From Parafrankia discariae (GTDB lineage: Bacteria; Actinomycetota; Actinomycetes; Frankiales; Frankiaceae), in NCBI RefSeq assembly GCF_000373365.1, contig NZ_KB891235.1:1-42196 (forward strand): DNA of 42,196 bases, written 5' to 3'. The notes under the pieces were generated by a model. The model did no database searches, was not told where the DNA came from, and saw nothing but the letters and a program-made list of their open reading frames with translations. Positions 3,009-40,643 of the stretch are shown piece after piece. The position numbers and the translations under genes were made by a program. Numbering within the stretch: position 1 is the first letter of the stretch; each line of letters starts with the position of its first letter.

Positions 3009-4553
3009 TCAGTTGACCTGCCGTTCGTGGTCTTTCCAGTAGGGCGCCCGGAGCTTGAACTTCTGCAGCTTCCCGGTGGCGGTGCGTTCGAGCACGGTGC
3101 GGAGCTCGATGGAGGTCGGACATTTGTAGTGCGCGATACGGTCCCGACAGAAAGTGATGAGTTGCTCCGGCGTCACGGTGGTACCGGGACGGAGCACGAC
3201 GAGGGCTTTGACGGTCTCCCCCCATTTGGCGTCGGGAACACCGATGACGGCCGCCTCGGCGACATCGGGATGCTGGTAGAGGGCGTCCTCGACCTCGATG
3301 GAGGAGACGTTCTCACCGCCGGTGATGATTACGTCCTTCTTGCGGTCGGTGAGAGTCAGCGCCGCGTCGGTGACGACGCCGCCGTCGCCGGTGTGGAACC
3401 AGCCGTCGCGCAGGGCTTCGGCGCTCTGGTCGGGCTGGTCCCAGTAGCCGTCGAAGACGTGGTTGGAACGGATGAGGACCTCGCCGGTGGCGTCGGTGGT
3501 CAACCGGACGCCGAGGGCGGGCGGGCCGGCGGCGGCCAGCCGACGGGCACGTTCCTCGGTGGGCAGGGCCGCCCAGCCGGGTCGGGCCCGGTTGATCGTG
3601 AGCAGCGGCGAGGCCTCGGTCGACCCGTAGATCTGGATGAACTCCCAGCCGAGCTCCTCCTCGACCCGGGCGATCATCGCGCTGGGCGGCGGGGCGCCGG
3701 CGACCACGATCCGGACCGTGTCCCGACCCGGGACGAGTCGGTTCTCGGCGACCCGGCGGGTGGCGGCGTCGAGCACGGAGGCGATGACCGCCGGGGCGGC
3801 GCACAGCAGGGTGACGCCCTCGGCGGCGACTCGGGCCAGGATCTCCTCGCCGTCGATCCTGCGGATGATCACATGGCTGCCCCCCATCCCGGTGACCGCG
3901 TACGGCATGCCCCAGCCGTTGACGTGGAACATCGGCAGGGTGTGCAGCAGCACGTCCCGGTCGCTGACACCGGTGTGCCAGCCGAACGAGGCGGCGTTGA
4001 GCCAGCAGTTGCGGTGCGTCAGCCGCACGCCCTTCGGCCGGGCCGTGGTCCCCGACGTGTAGTTGAGGGTGGCCACCGCGTCCTCGTCCGGCTCCCAGCC
4101 GGCCGGCGCTCCCGGCGGCGCCGCGGCGAACAGCTCGCTGTCGGTGGCGCCGTCCAGGACCAGCCGGTCCGGCACCTTCGCCTCGGCGAGCGGTTCGGCG
4201 TAGTCGGGGTCCACCAGCAGCAGCCGCGCCCCGGAGTGCTCGAGGATGTAGGAGATCTCCTCGGCGCCCAGCCGGTAGTTCACCGGGACCAACACCCGCC
4301 CGGTGCCGGACACCCCGTAGAAACAGGCCAGGAAGCGGGCCGAGTTCGGGGACACGATCGCCACCCGCTCGCCGACCCCCACGCCCAGCCGGTCCAGCCC
4401 GACCGCCACCCCCCGGGCCCGGCCCGCCAGTTCCGCGTAGGACACCCGGCCCCATGCTCCCGGGCCGCCCGGCTCGTCAACCACCCCCAGGCTGTCCGGG
4501 TACACCGTCTCCGCCCGGTCCAAAAAGTCCGACACCGTCAGGGAAACCTTCAT
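3009..4553 (-). CDS. Acyl-CoA ligase (AMP-binding, ANL superfamily)
   Basis: Activates a carboxylic acid to acyl-AMP and then acyl-CoA. Signature blocks are in order: YTSGTTARPKGV (phosphate loop), IYGSTEAS, GWFHTGDGG, DRKKDVIITGGENVSS and, near the C-terminus, TGKLQKFKLR with the catalytic lysine. About 514 residues is usual for fatty- or aryl-acid ligases of the FadD class. I prefer the ATG at 4553 because GGGAGG sits six bases upstream; an in-frame ATG at 4559 lies against the same purine run. First gene of a two-gene operon with the CoA-transferase, divergent from DUF35-thiolase, which points to one catabolic pathway. Substrate cannot be read from the sequence. Confidence 0.95.
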   Translation of the reverse strand: MKVSLTVSDFLDRAETVYPDSLGVVDEPGGPGAWGRVSYAELAGRARGVAVGLDRLGVGVGERVAIVSPNSARFLACFYGVSGTGRVLVPVNYRLGAEEISYILEHSGARLLLVDPDYAEPLAEAKVPDRLVLDGATDSELFAAAPPGAPAGWEPDEDAVATLNYTSGTTARPKGVRLTHRNCWLNAASFGWHTGVSDRDVLLHTLPMFHVNGWGMPYAVTGMGGSHVIIRRIDGEEILARVAAEGVTLLCAAPAVIASVLDAATRRVAENRLVPGRDTVRIVVAGAPPPSAMIARVEEELGWEFIQIYGSTEASPLLTINRARPGWAALPTEERARRLAAAGPPALGVRLTTDATGEVLIRSNHVFDGYWDQPDQSAEALRDGWFHTGDGGVVTDAALTLTDRKKDVIITGGENVSSIEVEDALYQHPDVAEAAVIGVPDAKWGETVKALVVLRPGTTVTPEQLITFCRDRIAHYKCPTSIELRTVLERTATGKLQKFKLRAPYWKDHERQVN

Positions 4554-36090: not shown

Positions 36091-36681
36091 ATGTACACCA
36101 CGATTCTGACGTACGGCCGTCACGGGGTGCTTCCGGTATTTCTGGTCGCCGCGTCCGTCGTAGTAACCGCCTCCTGTGGGGGCGGGGCGGCCCTGTCCTC
36201 GTCCGAGAGCCTGGCCTCGGCCCTGCCCACAGAGCCGACCAGTCTCCCACTACAGCCGAATGCCCCGGACGTCGGCGGTGACGTCCAGGCTCCGCTGCAG
36301 GACGTGGCGCGGCTGCAACTGACCGAGGCGCAGGTGATGGAAATGACCGACGCGTGCCGTGAAACAAGCGAGATCGTGGCCGGTAGCGAATGCACGACGG
36401 CAATACAGGTTAATACCAGGAACGCCTCGCCGTGCGCGGCGAAGGATCTCTGCGCCACCGTGGCGGAATGGCTGGAATCAGGAACGGAGAGGGCTCCTGG
36501 ATGGACTCTCCCGTCCTCCCGCTGGCCGACGGGACAATCGGCCGGTTCTGGCCGGTTCCACCGCGCGCTCCTGCTGATCCCGGGTGCGGCGCCCCCGCGG
36601 ACGACGGTCGGCTGTACGTCGGCCGCGCGACACGCTCTCCCCATTTCGCCGCCTCCGCACTACCATGATGATCATGGGTAG
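36091..36681 (+). CDS. Putative small lipoprotein
   Basis: Up to 196 residues. Residues 1-30 look like a lipoprotein signal with VVVTASC as lipobox, then a Ser/Pro-rich spacer. Residues about 65-130 have four cysteines (DACRETSEI, SECTTAI, SPCAAKDLC), suggesting two disulphides. After about residue 135 the sequence turns into Pro/Arg/Ser-rich, shadow-like composition and overlaps the next gene's start by 17 bases, so the true C-terminus may have been shifted by a frame change. Function unknown. Confidence 0.55.
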   Translation: MYTTILTYGRHGVLPVFLVAASVVVTASCGGGAALSSSESLASALPTEPTSLPLQPNAPDVGGDVQAPLQDVARLQLTEAQVMEMTDACRETSEIVAGSECTTAIQVNTRNASPCAAKDLCATVAEWLESGTERAPGWTLPSSRWPTGQSAGSGRFHRALLLIPGAAPPRTTVGCTSAARHALPISPPPHYHDDHG

Positions 36682-37270
36682 GGTCTCCCCGGTCGTGTTC
36701 GTGAGCTGTGCGGAGGAACTCGAGCTGTCGCCCCGGCCGCGATCGTTCGCCGCCGCCGCATACGCCGCGGTGCGCGATTCGGGTTGCCGAGTGGCCGCTC
36801 CTTCGGGCTCGACCGGGCACAAAGACCCTCCGGCCGAGGAGCGCCGCCGGCAGGTCGGCACGTGCGACGTATACCTGGGGCTCATCGGCCGTGAGTACGG
36901 CTCCCAGGTCGTCGACCTGCCGTCCCGGTCCTACCTCGAGCTGGAGTACGCCGCCGCGCAGAAGGCCGGCCTCCACCGGATCGTGTTCGTCAGAACCCTC
37001 GAGACCGAGTCGATCGACGGTCGTCAACAGGCGTTCCGTGAACGAGCACGGCAGGACGGGCTGTGCGGCTGGTTCGTCGACGACGAGGAACTGCATCGGC
37101 TGGCGCGGATCGCGCTGGAGGGCTGGCGGTCCCGCTCGCCGAAACGCGCCGCGAGGAAGCGCGCCCGGCAGGACCCTCCGGGCATCGGCCCGGCGTGTGA
37201 CGCGAATGGTCTGAAGGATTGGGCTCCGGAGATCGCGTCAGGCATTTCTGACGCCATAGGCTGGCCGTAG
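36674..37270 (+). CDS. Stand-alone DUF4062 protein
   Basis: 198 residues from ATG 36674 (ATG 36665 and 36668 are alternatives). The start PVVFVSCAEEL, then CDVYLGLIGREYGSQV, RSYLELEYAAAQKAG and HRIVFVRTL match DUF4062, a Rossmann-like fold related to TIR and nucleoside deoxyribosyltransferase domains. In actinobacteria it usually forms the N-terminus of large NTPase/TPR or WD40 proteins with suspected signalling or defence roles; here nothing follows but a basic tail (RAARKRARQ). A TPR remnant of a different gene lies 3.4 kb away on the other strand. Confidence 0.75.
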   Translation: MGRVSPVVFVSCAEELELSPRPRSFAAAAYAAVRDSGCRVAAPSGSTGHKDPPAEERRRQVGTCDVYLGLIGREYGSQVVDLPSRSYLELEYAAAQKAGLHRIVFVRTLETESIDGRQQAFRERARQDGLCGWFVDDEELHRLARIALEGWRSRSPKRAARKRARQDPPGIGPACDANGLKDWAPEIASGISDAIGWP

Positions 37271-37508: not shown

Positions 37509-37587
37509 ATGGCCGTGCGCCCGACTGTGACCGATGCCGACTCGTTCGGCAAAGAGCTGATGGCAGCGAGTCCGGACCTGCTGGGAT
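37509..37587 (+). pseudogene. IS256-family transposase, N-terminal fragment
   Basis: ATG 37509 with AGGAGGAG ideally placed upstream begins MAVRPTVTDADSFGKELM, then AASPDLL, up to the insertion point at 37587. It continues after the insert at 39868. Read alone the frame runs 60 codons into the foreign DNA. Confidence 0.7.
37578..37587 (+). repeat. Target-site duplication, left copy
   Basis: CTGCTGGGAT directly precedes the CAGGGAC end of the inserted element and recurs exactly at 39858-39867 after its other end. Confidence 0.88.
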
Positions 37588-37621
37588 CAGGGACACGGCA
37601 AAGTCGTAAATTCCGGAGCAG

Positions 37622-38083
37622 TTACGTCGCCGATGCGGGCGATTCGGTCAGTGAGGCGATGCACGCAGCGAGCAGGCGCCGCATCTGATCTTGCTCGCCG
37701 GTATCCAGATTGGCCAGCATGTCTTGCTCGACGCGGCGAACCGCGGCGCTGGCCACCTTGAGCTGGCGGCGCCCGCGGGCGGTCAGCTCGGTCGGCAGGG
37801 CCCTGCCTACGGGTGCCTGTGCCGGGCGGACGACGAGTCCCTGGCGTTCGAGGGCCTGCAGGAGCACGTTCATCGACTGCCGGGTGACGAAGGCGCCGCG
37901 GGCGAGCTCGGAGTTCGACAGGCCCGGCCGCTGGGCGAGCAGCTCCAGGCAGGCGTAGTGGGTGATCGTCATGCCGAGCGGCCTCAGCACGGCCTCCAGG
38001 GCAGAGTGCAGAGCGCTCGCGGCCGCCTTCAGCATGTACCCCAGCGATGTGTCCAGCTCGATTCCGGGCTCGCCTTGACTCAT
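37622..38083 (-). CDS. MarR-family regulator (mobile passenger)
   Basis: 153 residues from ATG 38083. The winged helix reads THYACLELLAQRPGLSNSELA, then VTRQSMNVLLQALERQGLV and the wing RALPTELTARGRRQL. MarR proteins often sense phenolics, antibiotics or electrophiles and repress a divergent detoxification gene. Here the divergent gene encodes a VOC protein, and the gap holds two inverted repeats, one over the MarR start codon. The predicted upstream start (38158) would run through the operator, so I prefer 38083. Confidence 0.92.
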   Translation of the reverse strand: MSQGEPGIELDTSLGYMLKAAASALHSALEAVLRPLGMTITHYACLELLAQRPGLSNSELARGAFVTRQSMNVLLQALERQGLVVRPAQAPVGRALPTELTARGRRQLKVASAAVRRVEQDMLANLDTGEQDQMRRLLAACIASLTESPASAT

Positions 38084-38125
38084 GTCAGCAGTCTGACATA
38101 GATTGCGGCGCGTCAGAAGACTGAC
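38082..38125. promoter_or_regulatory. Twin MarR operators
   Basis: ATGTCAG-CAGT-CTGACAT (38082-38099, perfect 7-bp arms) and GTCAG-AAGA-CTGAC (38112-38125, perfect 5-bp arms) are 28 bases apart centre to centre. They share TCAG-N4-CTGA(C). The first covers the MarR start codon; the second lies 22 bases before the VOC start. Bound dimers would block both genes. Confidence 0.75.
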
Positions 38126-38147
38126 ATCCAATGGGAAGGCAAGGATC

Positions 38148-38516
38148 ATGGCCGTCACGGGACCCGACTTCGTTTCACTGCAGGTGCGCGACCTGGAGCG
38201 TTCCGCCGCTTTCTACGAGCGGTACCTGGGGCTGAAGCGCTCCGACGCGGGCCCGTCGCACGCAGTCGTGTTCGACACCAAGCCGATCGCGTTCGCCGTC
38301 CGCGACGTCGCCGCGGGCACCGACCTGGACGCGATCGCGCAGCCGGGCCAGGGAATGGCGCTGTGGCTGCACGCCCCCGACGCGCAGGACATCCACGACG
38401 CCCTAGCCGCCGCCGGCGCGACGATCGTGTCAGCGCCCGTCGACGGGCCGTTCGGCCGCACTTTCACGTTCGCCGACCCGGACGGCTACCAGGTGACCCT
38501 CCACGACCGCGGCTGA
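38148..38516 (+). CDS. VOC-superfamily protein (glyoxalase/dioxygenase-like)
   Basis: 122 residues: FVSLQVRDLERSAAFYERYLGL, then a second beta-alpha unit PDAQDIHDALAAAGATIV and the end FGRTFTFADPDGYQVTLHD with its Glu/Asp-type metal region unclear. VOC proteins include glyoxalase I, fosfomycin and bleomycin resistance proteins and dioxygenases. The first metal ligand (often His after the first strand start) is not evident. Its pairing with MarR suggests inducible detoxification, and its place inside a transposable unit suggests a selected cargo. Confidence 0.88.
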   Translation: MAVTGPDFVSLQVRDLERSAAFYERYLGLKRSDAGPSHAVVFDTKPIAFAVRDVAAGTDLDAIAQPGQGMALWLHAPDAQDIHDALAAAGATIVSAPVDGPFGRTFTFADPDGYQVTLHDRG

Positions 38517-38572
38517 GCCGGGCGTCCCGGTCTTCACCCTGAGCGGGCTTCTTACAGCGGAAGGCCAGCCGC

Positions 38573-39857
38573 CAGGGACACGGCAAAGCCGCTCATGCAG
38601 TTTGAAGCAGTTTTAGCGTCCGCTGCGGGTCGCGGGCGTGGTGGCGGTTAGCGGCGGCGATGTTGGCCTGGCCGTCCAAGCGCAGCAGGCTGATGGCCAG
38701 GCTGCGCAGCGAGGCCATCACACGGGGCGCGTTTCCTGTCCTGACCAGCGATCTATCCTCCTGATAAGTCACGTCGCGGACCCAGCGAAGCCGGTTTTCC
38801 ATCTCCCAGTGGCCGCGGACCCAGGCCGCCAGGGTGGCGGGATCGGCGCCGCGGTCGCTGGTAATGAGGTACACGACCTCGACGGTCTTCTTTCCTTTCC
38901 TCGTGACCGTGCGGTGGACCTGCGCGACCTGGGCGGCGCCGGCGAACTCGATCCAGGCCGGCACCAGCACGACCTTGATCTTTCGACGGGCCCGGCGGCC
39001 GTGGCCCGTGCTCACGGCCGAGGTCGCGGGGATCCCGGTCCAGGGCAGCTTCTTCAGCTGCTTGTACAGGGTCGGCATGTTGGCCTTGACGGTCATCACG
39101 TAGTCGGCGTGCCGGCCGGTGATGGCCTGCGCCGTGTCGCTCTGCGTGTGCAGGGCGTCGACCGTGATGACCGCCCCGGCCAGGTCAGTGAACGCTTTCA
39201 GCAGTTCCCGGACGGCAGGAATCTCATTGGACTTCGCGTCCACGGCGACCTGGCCGAGGACCCCGCGCCGATACCGTGCGCTAGGGCCGCGACCAGGTGC
39301 GGGGCCTTCTCTTCCCTGTTCCGGGCGCCGCGGACGGCCATGCCGTCGACCGCGATTACCAGCCGGCCGCCGGCCTGCATCGCCCCGGTGTGAAGCCAGG
39401 CGCCAATGACCTGGTCGAGCACGTCCGCGCTGATCAGGGCGAACGCGCGCCGGAACGTGGACTCCTCCGCCGGCCCGCGGACCGCTCCGAGCCCGGCCAG
39501 CACGTCGGCCCCGGCATCGGCGGCCCACTGGCCGATCGCGGCGAACGACCTTGAGCCCGCGGTCACCGCCGCGACGCCGACGGCAAGCAGCCCGGCCAGC
39601 GAGTGCCGCCGCCCGCGTCTCTTCCGCGGGTCCGGGAGCTGAGCAAGCAGATCAAGAAGGTACTGGCTGCGGGCAGCAGCCGTCAGGGAGGGAGATGGCA
39701 TAAGCGGGCGGGCGTCCCTCGTGGCAGACGACGGTGAGTGTGAGAGCTTCCATCGTTCCGCCGGGCCCCGCCCGCCACCCTCAGACACGCCAAACACATC
39801 ACGGCGGTTATGACACCGCAGGTCACGGCCTAACTTCATGACTTTGCCGGGTCCCTG
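38573..39857 (-). mobile_element. ISAs1-like insertion sequence (inner unit)
   Basis: The plain IS: 1285 bp, with the inner left end CAGGGACACGGCAAAGCC (38573-38590) and the right end at 39857. The two agree at 16 of 18 positions and then diverge. Size and one long DDE gene fit the family. No target duplication flanks the inner end (the 10 bases before 38573 are not CTGCTGGGAT), so this inner end was not the one used in the last transposition. Confidence 0.75.
38593..39701 (-). pseudogene. ISAs1-family transposase with a frameshift
   Basis: From ATG 39701: MPSPSLTAAARSQYLLDLL, DPRKRRGRRHSLAGLLAVG and, with the first catalytic Asp, LVIAVDGMAVRGA. The frame changes near 39261-39265, then VLGQVAVDAKSNEIPAVREL continues, with AVITVDALHTQ (second Asp) and GHWEMENRLRWVRDVT plus YQED (Glu), ending near KLLQTA. 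Correcting GCG-GGG-TCC by one base joins HGIGA to VLGQ, which is the family consensus. So all three catalytic residues exist, but in two frames. The shift is at a run of four G. It is probably a late loss, although the element must have moved before. Confidence 0.85.
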
Positions 39858-39867
39858 CTGCTGGGAT
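39858..39867 (+). repeat. Target-site duplication, right copy
   Basis: CTGCTGGGAT, identical to 37578-37587. Confidence 0.88.
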
Positions 39868-40643
39868 CGATGGTGAAGGCGTTCGCGGAGGCGTTGATGG
39901 GCGCCGAGGCGGACGGGATCCGTGACGCCGAATATGGCGAGATATCCCGGATCGGGTTAACCGTCGGAATGGCCACCGGACGCGGGAATGGGACACGCGG
40001 GCTGGGACGATCAAGCTGGCGGTGCCGAAGCTGCGGCAGGGCTCGTACTTCCCGGAATGGCTGCTGACTCGCCGGCACCGCGCCGAACAGGCACTGATCT
40101 CGGTCGTGGCCACCTCCTGTCTGCTCGGAGTATCGACGAGAAGAGTCGACAGGCTCGTCGAGCAGCTCGGGGTCGCGAACATCTCGAAATCCCAGGTGTC
40201 CGAGCTCGCGAAGCACCTCGACGTTCAGGTCGAGGCGTTCCGGTCCCGGCCGCTGGACGCCGGCCCGTACCGGTTCGTGCAGGCGGACGCGCTGACGATG
40301 AAGGTCCGCGAGGACGGGGCCGGCTGGCCGGCGTTCTTCCGCGGCCTGGTCGCCCGGGGCCTGTCCGGGGTCCGCCTGGTGACCTCGGACGCCCACCGCG
40401 GCCTGGTCAACGCGATCGGGTCGACCCTGCCCGGCGCGTCCTGGCAGAGATGACGTCGCCGGTATCTTCCCCAGCCGTGACGCCATCATCCGGCTCGTCG
40501 GCGCCGTCCTCGCCGAACAACACGACGAGTGGATCGAAACCCACCGCTACATCGGCCTGAAAATCCTCGCCAGAACCGACCCCGCGCAGAAAACCGCCGA
40601 CACACCCGAGATCAGCGTGACACCCGAAGCCCTCCCCGCATAA
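39868..40643 (+). pseudogene. IS256-family transposase, main fragment
   Basis: Continues from the N-terminal fragment: MVKAFAEALMGAEADGIRDA, EYGEIS, then a one-base deletion near 39950 (expected SPDRVNRRNG). In the new frame: PKLRQGSYFPEWLLTRRHRA, LGVSTRRVDRLVEQLG, FVQADALTMKVRE (first catalytic Asp), then an internal deletion of roughly 35-40 codons to DGAGWPAFFRGLVARGL and VRLVTSDAHRGL (second Asp). A second deletion at 40452 removes the Glu-bearing region, joining GASWQR to DVAGIFPSRDAIIRLVGAV, AEQHDEWIETHRYIGL and the stop TAA. Thus this element cannot move by itself. Confidence 0.85.

Follow-up and report, generated by a model that had tools for sequence, protein, structure and literature searches.

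The window analyzed here, a stretch of 42,196 nucleotides from a Parafrankia discariae contig, contains at positions 37588–39857 an insertion sequence (IS) of the ISAs1 family with three ends, namely two left-type ends, an outer one at 37588 and an inner one at 38573, and a right end at 39857. The full unit measures 2270 bp and its core, 38573–39857, measures 1285 bp. A divergent gene pair encoding a MarR-family regulator and a VOC/glyoxalase-superfamily protein lies between the two left-type ends. The features of the region are as follows.

37509–40453 (37509–37587 plus 39868 onward), forward strand: IS256/Mutator-type transposase gene, the target, split by the unit (Transposase_mut; joined-flank alignments)
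37578–37587, no strand: target duplication, left copy, 10 bp, CTGCTGGGAT, identical at 10/10 positions to 39858–39867
37588–37609, forward strand: outer left end (tip), CAGGGACACGGCAAAGTCGTAA, matching the left ends of the relatives L016–L018 at 18/18 positions and the unit's own right end at 21/25
37622–38083, reverse strand: MarR-family regulator gene, putatively captured (Pfam MarR_2 6e-11 and MarR 3e-8, over 37622–38158)
38083–38125, no strand: region between the divergent MarR and VOC genes, with two inverted repeats read from the sequence
38148–38516, forward strand: VOC/glyoxalase-superfamily protein gene, putatively captured, 122 aa (Pfam Glyoxalase 3e-14, over 38103–38516)
38517–38572, no strand: putatively captured DNA 3' of the VOC gene, up to the IS landing point (homologous in G457, G726, and the IS-free locus G822)
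38573–38590, forward strand: bypassed inner left end, originally that of the IS (position 17 is C; spacing to the transposase stop like that in L016–L019)
38593–39528, reverse strand: ISAs1 transposase, C-terminal open frame, 311 aa (NCBIfam NF033564, 167.5 bits, cut-off 70; DDE_Tnp_1)
39198–39839, reverse strand: ISAs1 transposase, N-terminal open frame, 213 aa (DDE_Tnp_1_assoc; NF033564, 37.7 bits, alone under the cut-off)
39840–39857, reverse strand: right end of the IS and of the unit, inverted partner of 37588
39858–39867, no strand: target duplication, right copy, CTGCTGGGAT

The preliminary description had placed the inner end, CAGGGACACGGCAAAGCC at 38573–38590 on the forward strand, in the same orientation as the outer end, CAGGGACACGGCAAAGTC at 37588, with the right end inverted and ending at 39857. 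Recomputation reproduced both this arrangement and the quality of the matches, the outer end agreeing with the right end at 21/25 positions and the inner end at 16/18 (17/25). The outer and inner left ends agree with each other at 17/18. The chance rate was estimated by a first-order Markov simulation of DNA of similar composition (19.66 million positions, one strand), in which a match of at least 16/18 arose once and a match of at least 17/18 never. Compared with this rate, three ends of 17–18/18 inside 2.3 kb cannot be ascribed to chance.

The two transposase frames are mutually out of frame, meaning that the gene is broken in the window copy; a second full unit, in genome G457, has a single open frame of 410 aa. 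The C-terminal frame scores above the cut-off of the ISAs1 model, and the outer pair of ends has the CAGGG-type inverted sequences and the duplication of about 10 bp that mark the family. According to a table in PMC7371123, ISAs1 members range from 1.2 to 1.5 kb; the 1285-bp core falls within this range, whereas the 2270-bp unit, with its two cargo genes, departs from the pattern of a short element carrying a transposase only. End pairs were scanned in 62 sources (the window, L007–L065, L166, and L167). Fourteen of 29 pairs, the outer pair of the window included, had a 10/10 duplication and one had 9/10, while the L018 pair could not be tested; the 14 perfect pairs come from six genomes, with a Nocardiopsis and an Acidipropionibacterium record set contributing five pairs apiece, and are therefore not independent. 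In the near relatives L016–L019, the left end lies 23–25 bp beyond the last matched transposase base, and the inner end of the window lies 20 bp from the end of the transposase frame. Because it is placed as in these relatives, the inner end is the ordinary end of the IS itself. Among these four relatives, only L019 has a 10/10 duplication (L016, 4/10; L017, 6/10). The window's own genome holds one copy (40 candidates scored), its five other matches being short and partial. One further scanned copy, at 3417–6012 of L044 (Nocardiopsis metallicus), was considered as a capture and set aside, since on a reading of its frames it is a simple ISAs1 copy split by a two-frame IS3-like element, with the outer duplication intact.

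The MarR frame is open back to 38158, and the ATG at 38083 is, on a reading of the frame, the likelier start. The repeats between the divergent genes (TGTCAG-N4-CTGACA at 38083–38098 and GTCAG-N4-CTGAC at 38112–38125) form a possible MarR operator. For the VOC protein, Fos-like NCBIfam models match only far under their cut-offs, and no NCBIfam model reached its cut-off for either cargo protein; hence we name no substrate. At the loci examined, the outer-type end was found only with the MarR–VOC pair, yet it is recurrent.

Scoring of the duplications at the insertion site gave 10/10 for the outer pair of ends (37588/39857) and 2/10 for the inner pair (38573/39857). When the flanks were joined with one copy of the repeat, they aligned without gaps across the junction to uninterrupted IS256-type genes at all 11 loci tested (a genus search for IS256-type copies gave 12 other places starting at base 1, one of them without a locus). 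The perfect outer duplication and the junction matches together indicate, therefore, that the 2270-bp unit moved whole and that the inner end was skipped. Judged from the sequence, insertion at this site involved the outer end. The IS256-type target copy (39868–40640) is itself damaged, other copies being about 90 bp longer between two matching parts, and a gene for a DUF4062-domain protein (36584–37270) adjoins the insertion region.

Other copies were sought in a class sample (393 genomes, E up to 1e-20), in the genus of genome G264, inferred to be Streptomyces (392 genomes, E up to 1e-60), and in the family of G264 (394 genomes, E up to 1e-165); two candidates only were scored per genome in each search, so copies may have been missed. 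The genus search yielded at least one full unit, that of G457, which is 94% identical to the window unit, matches it at 33/37 positions of the spacer, and has an identical inner end. With a right end of 15/18 and a flanking repeat that agrees at no more than 7/9 positions (4/10 over the full length), G457 taken alone does not prove transposition. The class sample contained no further full unit among the two candidates scored per genome; in it, G340 and G092 carry unit bases 1–948. At least nine genomes in the family search had a match, including G1045 (bases 1–945) and G851 (bases 3–937). G726, from the genus search, has unit bases 25–1048, with an inner end and an IS remnant and without the outer tip.

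A GTDB contig scan led to L020 in S. violaceoruber NRRL S-981, where a right end, transposase pieces, about 310 bp of foreign DNA (presumably IS701-like), a MarR-side piece, and an outer end follow one another. This locus retains the last 121–122 bases of the MarR side (a 3' piece of the MarR gene) and is flanked by a 10/10 duplication, ACCTGTGCCC, at another site than that of the window; no full unit was found in this genome. The first 22 bases of the outer tip are identical in G457 and L020, at unrelated sites, and 21/22 are identical in L097. Two Streptomyces plasmids with identical context carry the tip and 259 bp in all of the cassette side, and no place on plasmids spans 80% of the unit. 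Left flanks of up to 1 kb from ten loci are unrelated at E 1e-3, except for the pair G340/G092. Over the first 34 bases, the mobile copies (window, G457, and L020) are identical, and G340 and G092 differ from the window at 4 and 7 positions, respectively. Between the window and G457, the cassette differs at 71/985 aligned bases and the IS at 59/1283; this greater divergence of the cassette hints at recombination.

None of the IS-free remnants has a convincing duplication, which counts against a simple history, as do the greater divergence of the cassette and the missing tip of G726: G092 and G1045 have none, G340 has one 9/10 match 7 kb away, and G851 has GC-rich repeats only. Phage records gave no match, and no viral contig yielded a confirmed relative of the VOC protein. 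Distant MarR–VOC loci lack a recognizable tip, the best match being 13/18 in 29 rows (27 distinct places, G340 and G092 excluded). In other genomes of the window's family, a search for the empty site of the cassette found only a block of about 680 bp in common. This block (L095, 6398–7081; L135, 6010–6693; L136, 6001–6683) has sharp edges and differing contexts and is present in four genomes of the family (G340 and G092 in one context, G104, and G193), as if mobile; we take its gene to be DinB/DUF664-like.

The point at which the IS joined the cassette is indicated by the IS-free locus G822, where homology detected by BLAST runs from unit base 36 to base 985 and ends exactly at the start of the inner end. 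A tblastn search over 14 kb of this locus gave no transposase match, and the remaining DNA similarity is limited to short stretches (38 bp at E 0.002 and 27 bp at E 0.008). This edge, as the alignment places it, marks the landing site of the IS. In G457 and G726, the DNA 3' of the VOC gene extends through a matching spacer as far as the inner end. The window lacks a 12-base stretch of G457 just ahead of the spacer, which helps explain why homology with G340 and G092 stops early.

Position 17 of the inner end is C in the window, G457, and G726, and it is T in all 28 ends belonging to pairs with perfect duplications; C17 may thus be what locks the cargo in. In a tree of the cassettes, the window unit groups with the two Pseudofrankia-like loci G340 and G092 (support 100/98), and the G457 unit groups with G1045 at 81/83, which falls short of what the tool counts as firm support; the tree gives no resolution at its deeper forks. 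Because the window and G457 share both the landing point and the changed inner end, remnants that lost the IS are the best reading of the IS-free loci that nest among them. For G1045, loss of the IS is a tentative suggestion. G340 and G092 had also been considered as the donor before capture; with a larger cassette tree, and with a break in the flank at the tip, remnants became the likelier reading.

In a mobile insertion cassette (MIC), cargo lies between IS ends. The IS-free cassettes that keep a single tip look like broken MICs, but the unit described here includes its transposase, and the regions scanned contained no IS-free cassette bounded by two ends. Composite transposons have two flanking IS copies; the MarR side here has only the tip of about 22 bp. 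Simple ISAs1 elements share with the unit the transposase family (NF033564 above its cut-off), the CAGGG...AAAGTC ends, and 10-bp duplications. ISArsp11, an ISAs1-family member of 1,306 bp with ends CAGGGCT..GCAAAGTCG and a 10-bp direct repeat, is given with 0 passenger genes in PMC6305408, in contrast to the 2270 bp, three ends, and two cargo genes found here. The term transporter IS (tIS) appears in PMC9330008, and ISArsp12, as described in PMC6305408, is a tIS of the IS481 family with an ArsR regulator and a permease. There, as here, IS ends enclose a transposase, a regulator, and a partner gene that are moved as a unit; the IS family differs, and our unit keeps a visible old internal end, from which the origin of the carrier can be followed. 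Joint movement of cargo between IS ends is seen in the window duplication, in the complete unit of G457, and in the deleted unit of L020 with its duplication. The ISEcp1 and ISPme1 modules belong to the IS1380 family and, according to PMC9330008 and PMC12589106, have variable and imperfect distal ends. As in those modules, the nearer end was bypassed, a distal end was used, adjacent genes were taken, and target duplications were made, whereas the copies seen here have one common distal end, perfect in the mobile ones, with a single end point in the window, G457, L020, and L097. No ISAs1 element with cargo was recognized in the literature searched, most subscription journals being outside its reach.

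The source of the outer end itself was considered in three ways. It may be the working tip, of about 22 bp, of a second IS of the same subfamily that lay in the same orientation on the MarR side, in a composite arrangement, and decayed, an origin to which we give about an even chance. The tip matches the left ends of L016 and L017 at 21/22 positions, far above chance, and its perfect 18/18 identity to IS ends favors a real IS end, for instance that of a lost second copy. Tip differences among the first 18 bases, at position 6 in G340 and at positions 8 and 13 in G092, would by parsimony point to an ancestor with 18/18. Yet no transposase DNA of a second copy stands beside the tip in the copies seen, and MarR-side DNA begins within about 23 bp. 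An IS joined to part of another copy is seen at 3404–5325 of L037, an Acidipropionibacterium MAG. Directly behind the complete ISAs1 copy there, 599 bp remain of a second one (its 3' part, 90%), and the 10/10 duplication encloses the whole and lies at the outer end; insertion into an old copy with recombination explains this locus equally well, however, and we do not count it as proof of a second three-ended case.

Somewhat short of an even chance is an origin in which a chance look-alike of an IS end, 3' of the MarR gene, was misread by the transposase, as with ISEcp1, and later improved to a perfect end. Such a mechanism is on record for ISEcp1 and ISPme1 in PMC9330008 and PMC12589106, and chance matches of at least 13/18 and at least 14/18 are not rare (1110 and 102 in the 19.66 million simulated positions). 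Among 13 cassette loci tested against 20000 random segments, drawn from DNA that contains some true ends, the tip was clear in G340, G092, and G1045 (0, 4, and 16 segments as high) and weak in G851 and G638 (281 each), and eight loci had none, namely G726, with its IS remnant, and seven IS-free loci. The weak, gapped tip of IS-free G638, which by eye is spacer-like near the landing point, would suit a look-alike; the absence of a tip from 7 of the 12 IS-free loci, the perfect tips of the mobile copies, and the tree, in which the tips of IS-free G340 and G092 look unit-derived, speak against it. That the outer end is part of an unrelated neighboring element, and the duplication a coincidence, is highly improbable. 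The single copy in the window's own genome and the purely inner-type ends of cargo-free near relatives would agree with such an element, but the 10/10 duplication of the window recurs as another in L020 elsewhere, and the whole unit itself recurs in the complete second unit of G457.

Overall, this is very probably gene capture via a distal end, stabilized as a transporter IS. The preliminary description had proposed that an IS gained a distal end and thereby a route to gene capture, and this proposal is supported: the near relatives have ends of the 38573 type, and ends of the 37588 type, seen only with MarR–VOC cargo, occur at a number of sites that are unrelated to one another, with perfect 10-bp duplications at two of these. 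Its alternative, a second IS that decayed and left only its end, is the first of the two likely origins weighed above. It had also reasoned that, if all copies were inner-type and none outer-type, a separate element would explain the outer end better; outer-type copies do exist.

Positions 37588–39857 are very probably a transporter IS of the ISAs1 family, a joint reading of the build seen in the DNA and a reconstructed history. Speaking against it are the single copy in the window's own genome with its broken transposase frame, the imperfect duplication of G457, the lack of convincing duplications at the remnants, the C17 inner end of G726 without an outer tip, and the 10/10 duplication in only one of L016–L019. 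In terms of build, an ordinary IS of about 1.3 kb (38573–39857) lies directly 3' of the MarR–VOC pair, with a second left-type end beyond the pair, and the segment from the outer to the right end inserted here in one piece, with a 10-bp target duplication and the inner end skipped. In terms of history, the IS would have landed beside a chromosomal MarR–VOC gene pair, and ordinary two-ended transposition would from then on have paired the right end with the outer end instead of the inner one. The change to C17 would have lowered use of the inner end and so fixed the cargo, and the chromosomal MarR–VOC cassettes with a tip and without the IS would be remnants of unit insertions. The unit probably arose as ISEcp1-type modules do, and did so within the ISAs1 family. 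Only tentatively do we extend this to the whole course of events, in which an ISAs1 element captured a regulator–enzyme pair via a distal end, C17 at an otherwise invariant base disabled the inner end and made carriage obligatory, and the unit seeded the pair into chromosomes across several genera of actinomycetes, the IS part decaying there while the genes were retained.

For annotation, the locus is a warning that taking the nearest end as the boundary of an IS may give a wrong result. Several actinomycetes carry the enlarged element, as copies or remnants, at sites unrelated to one another. As a rule, how an IS turns into a carrier has to be deduced from the end result. At this locus and its relatives, the place of landing, the old end that was bypassed, the newly used end, copies that moved, and what are probably immobilized remnants can be compared directly. 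Because these stages are visible together, the individual steps can be tested, namely which end is used, what effect C17 has, and whether the gene pair spread by this route.
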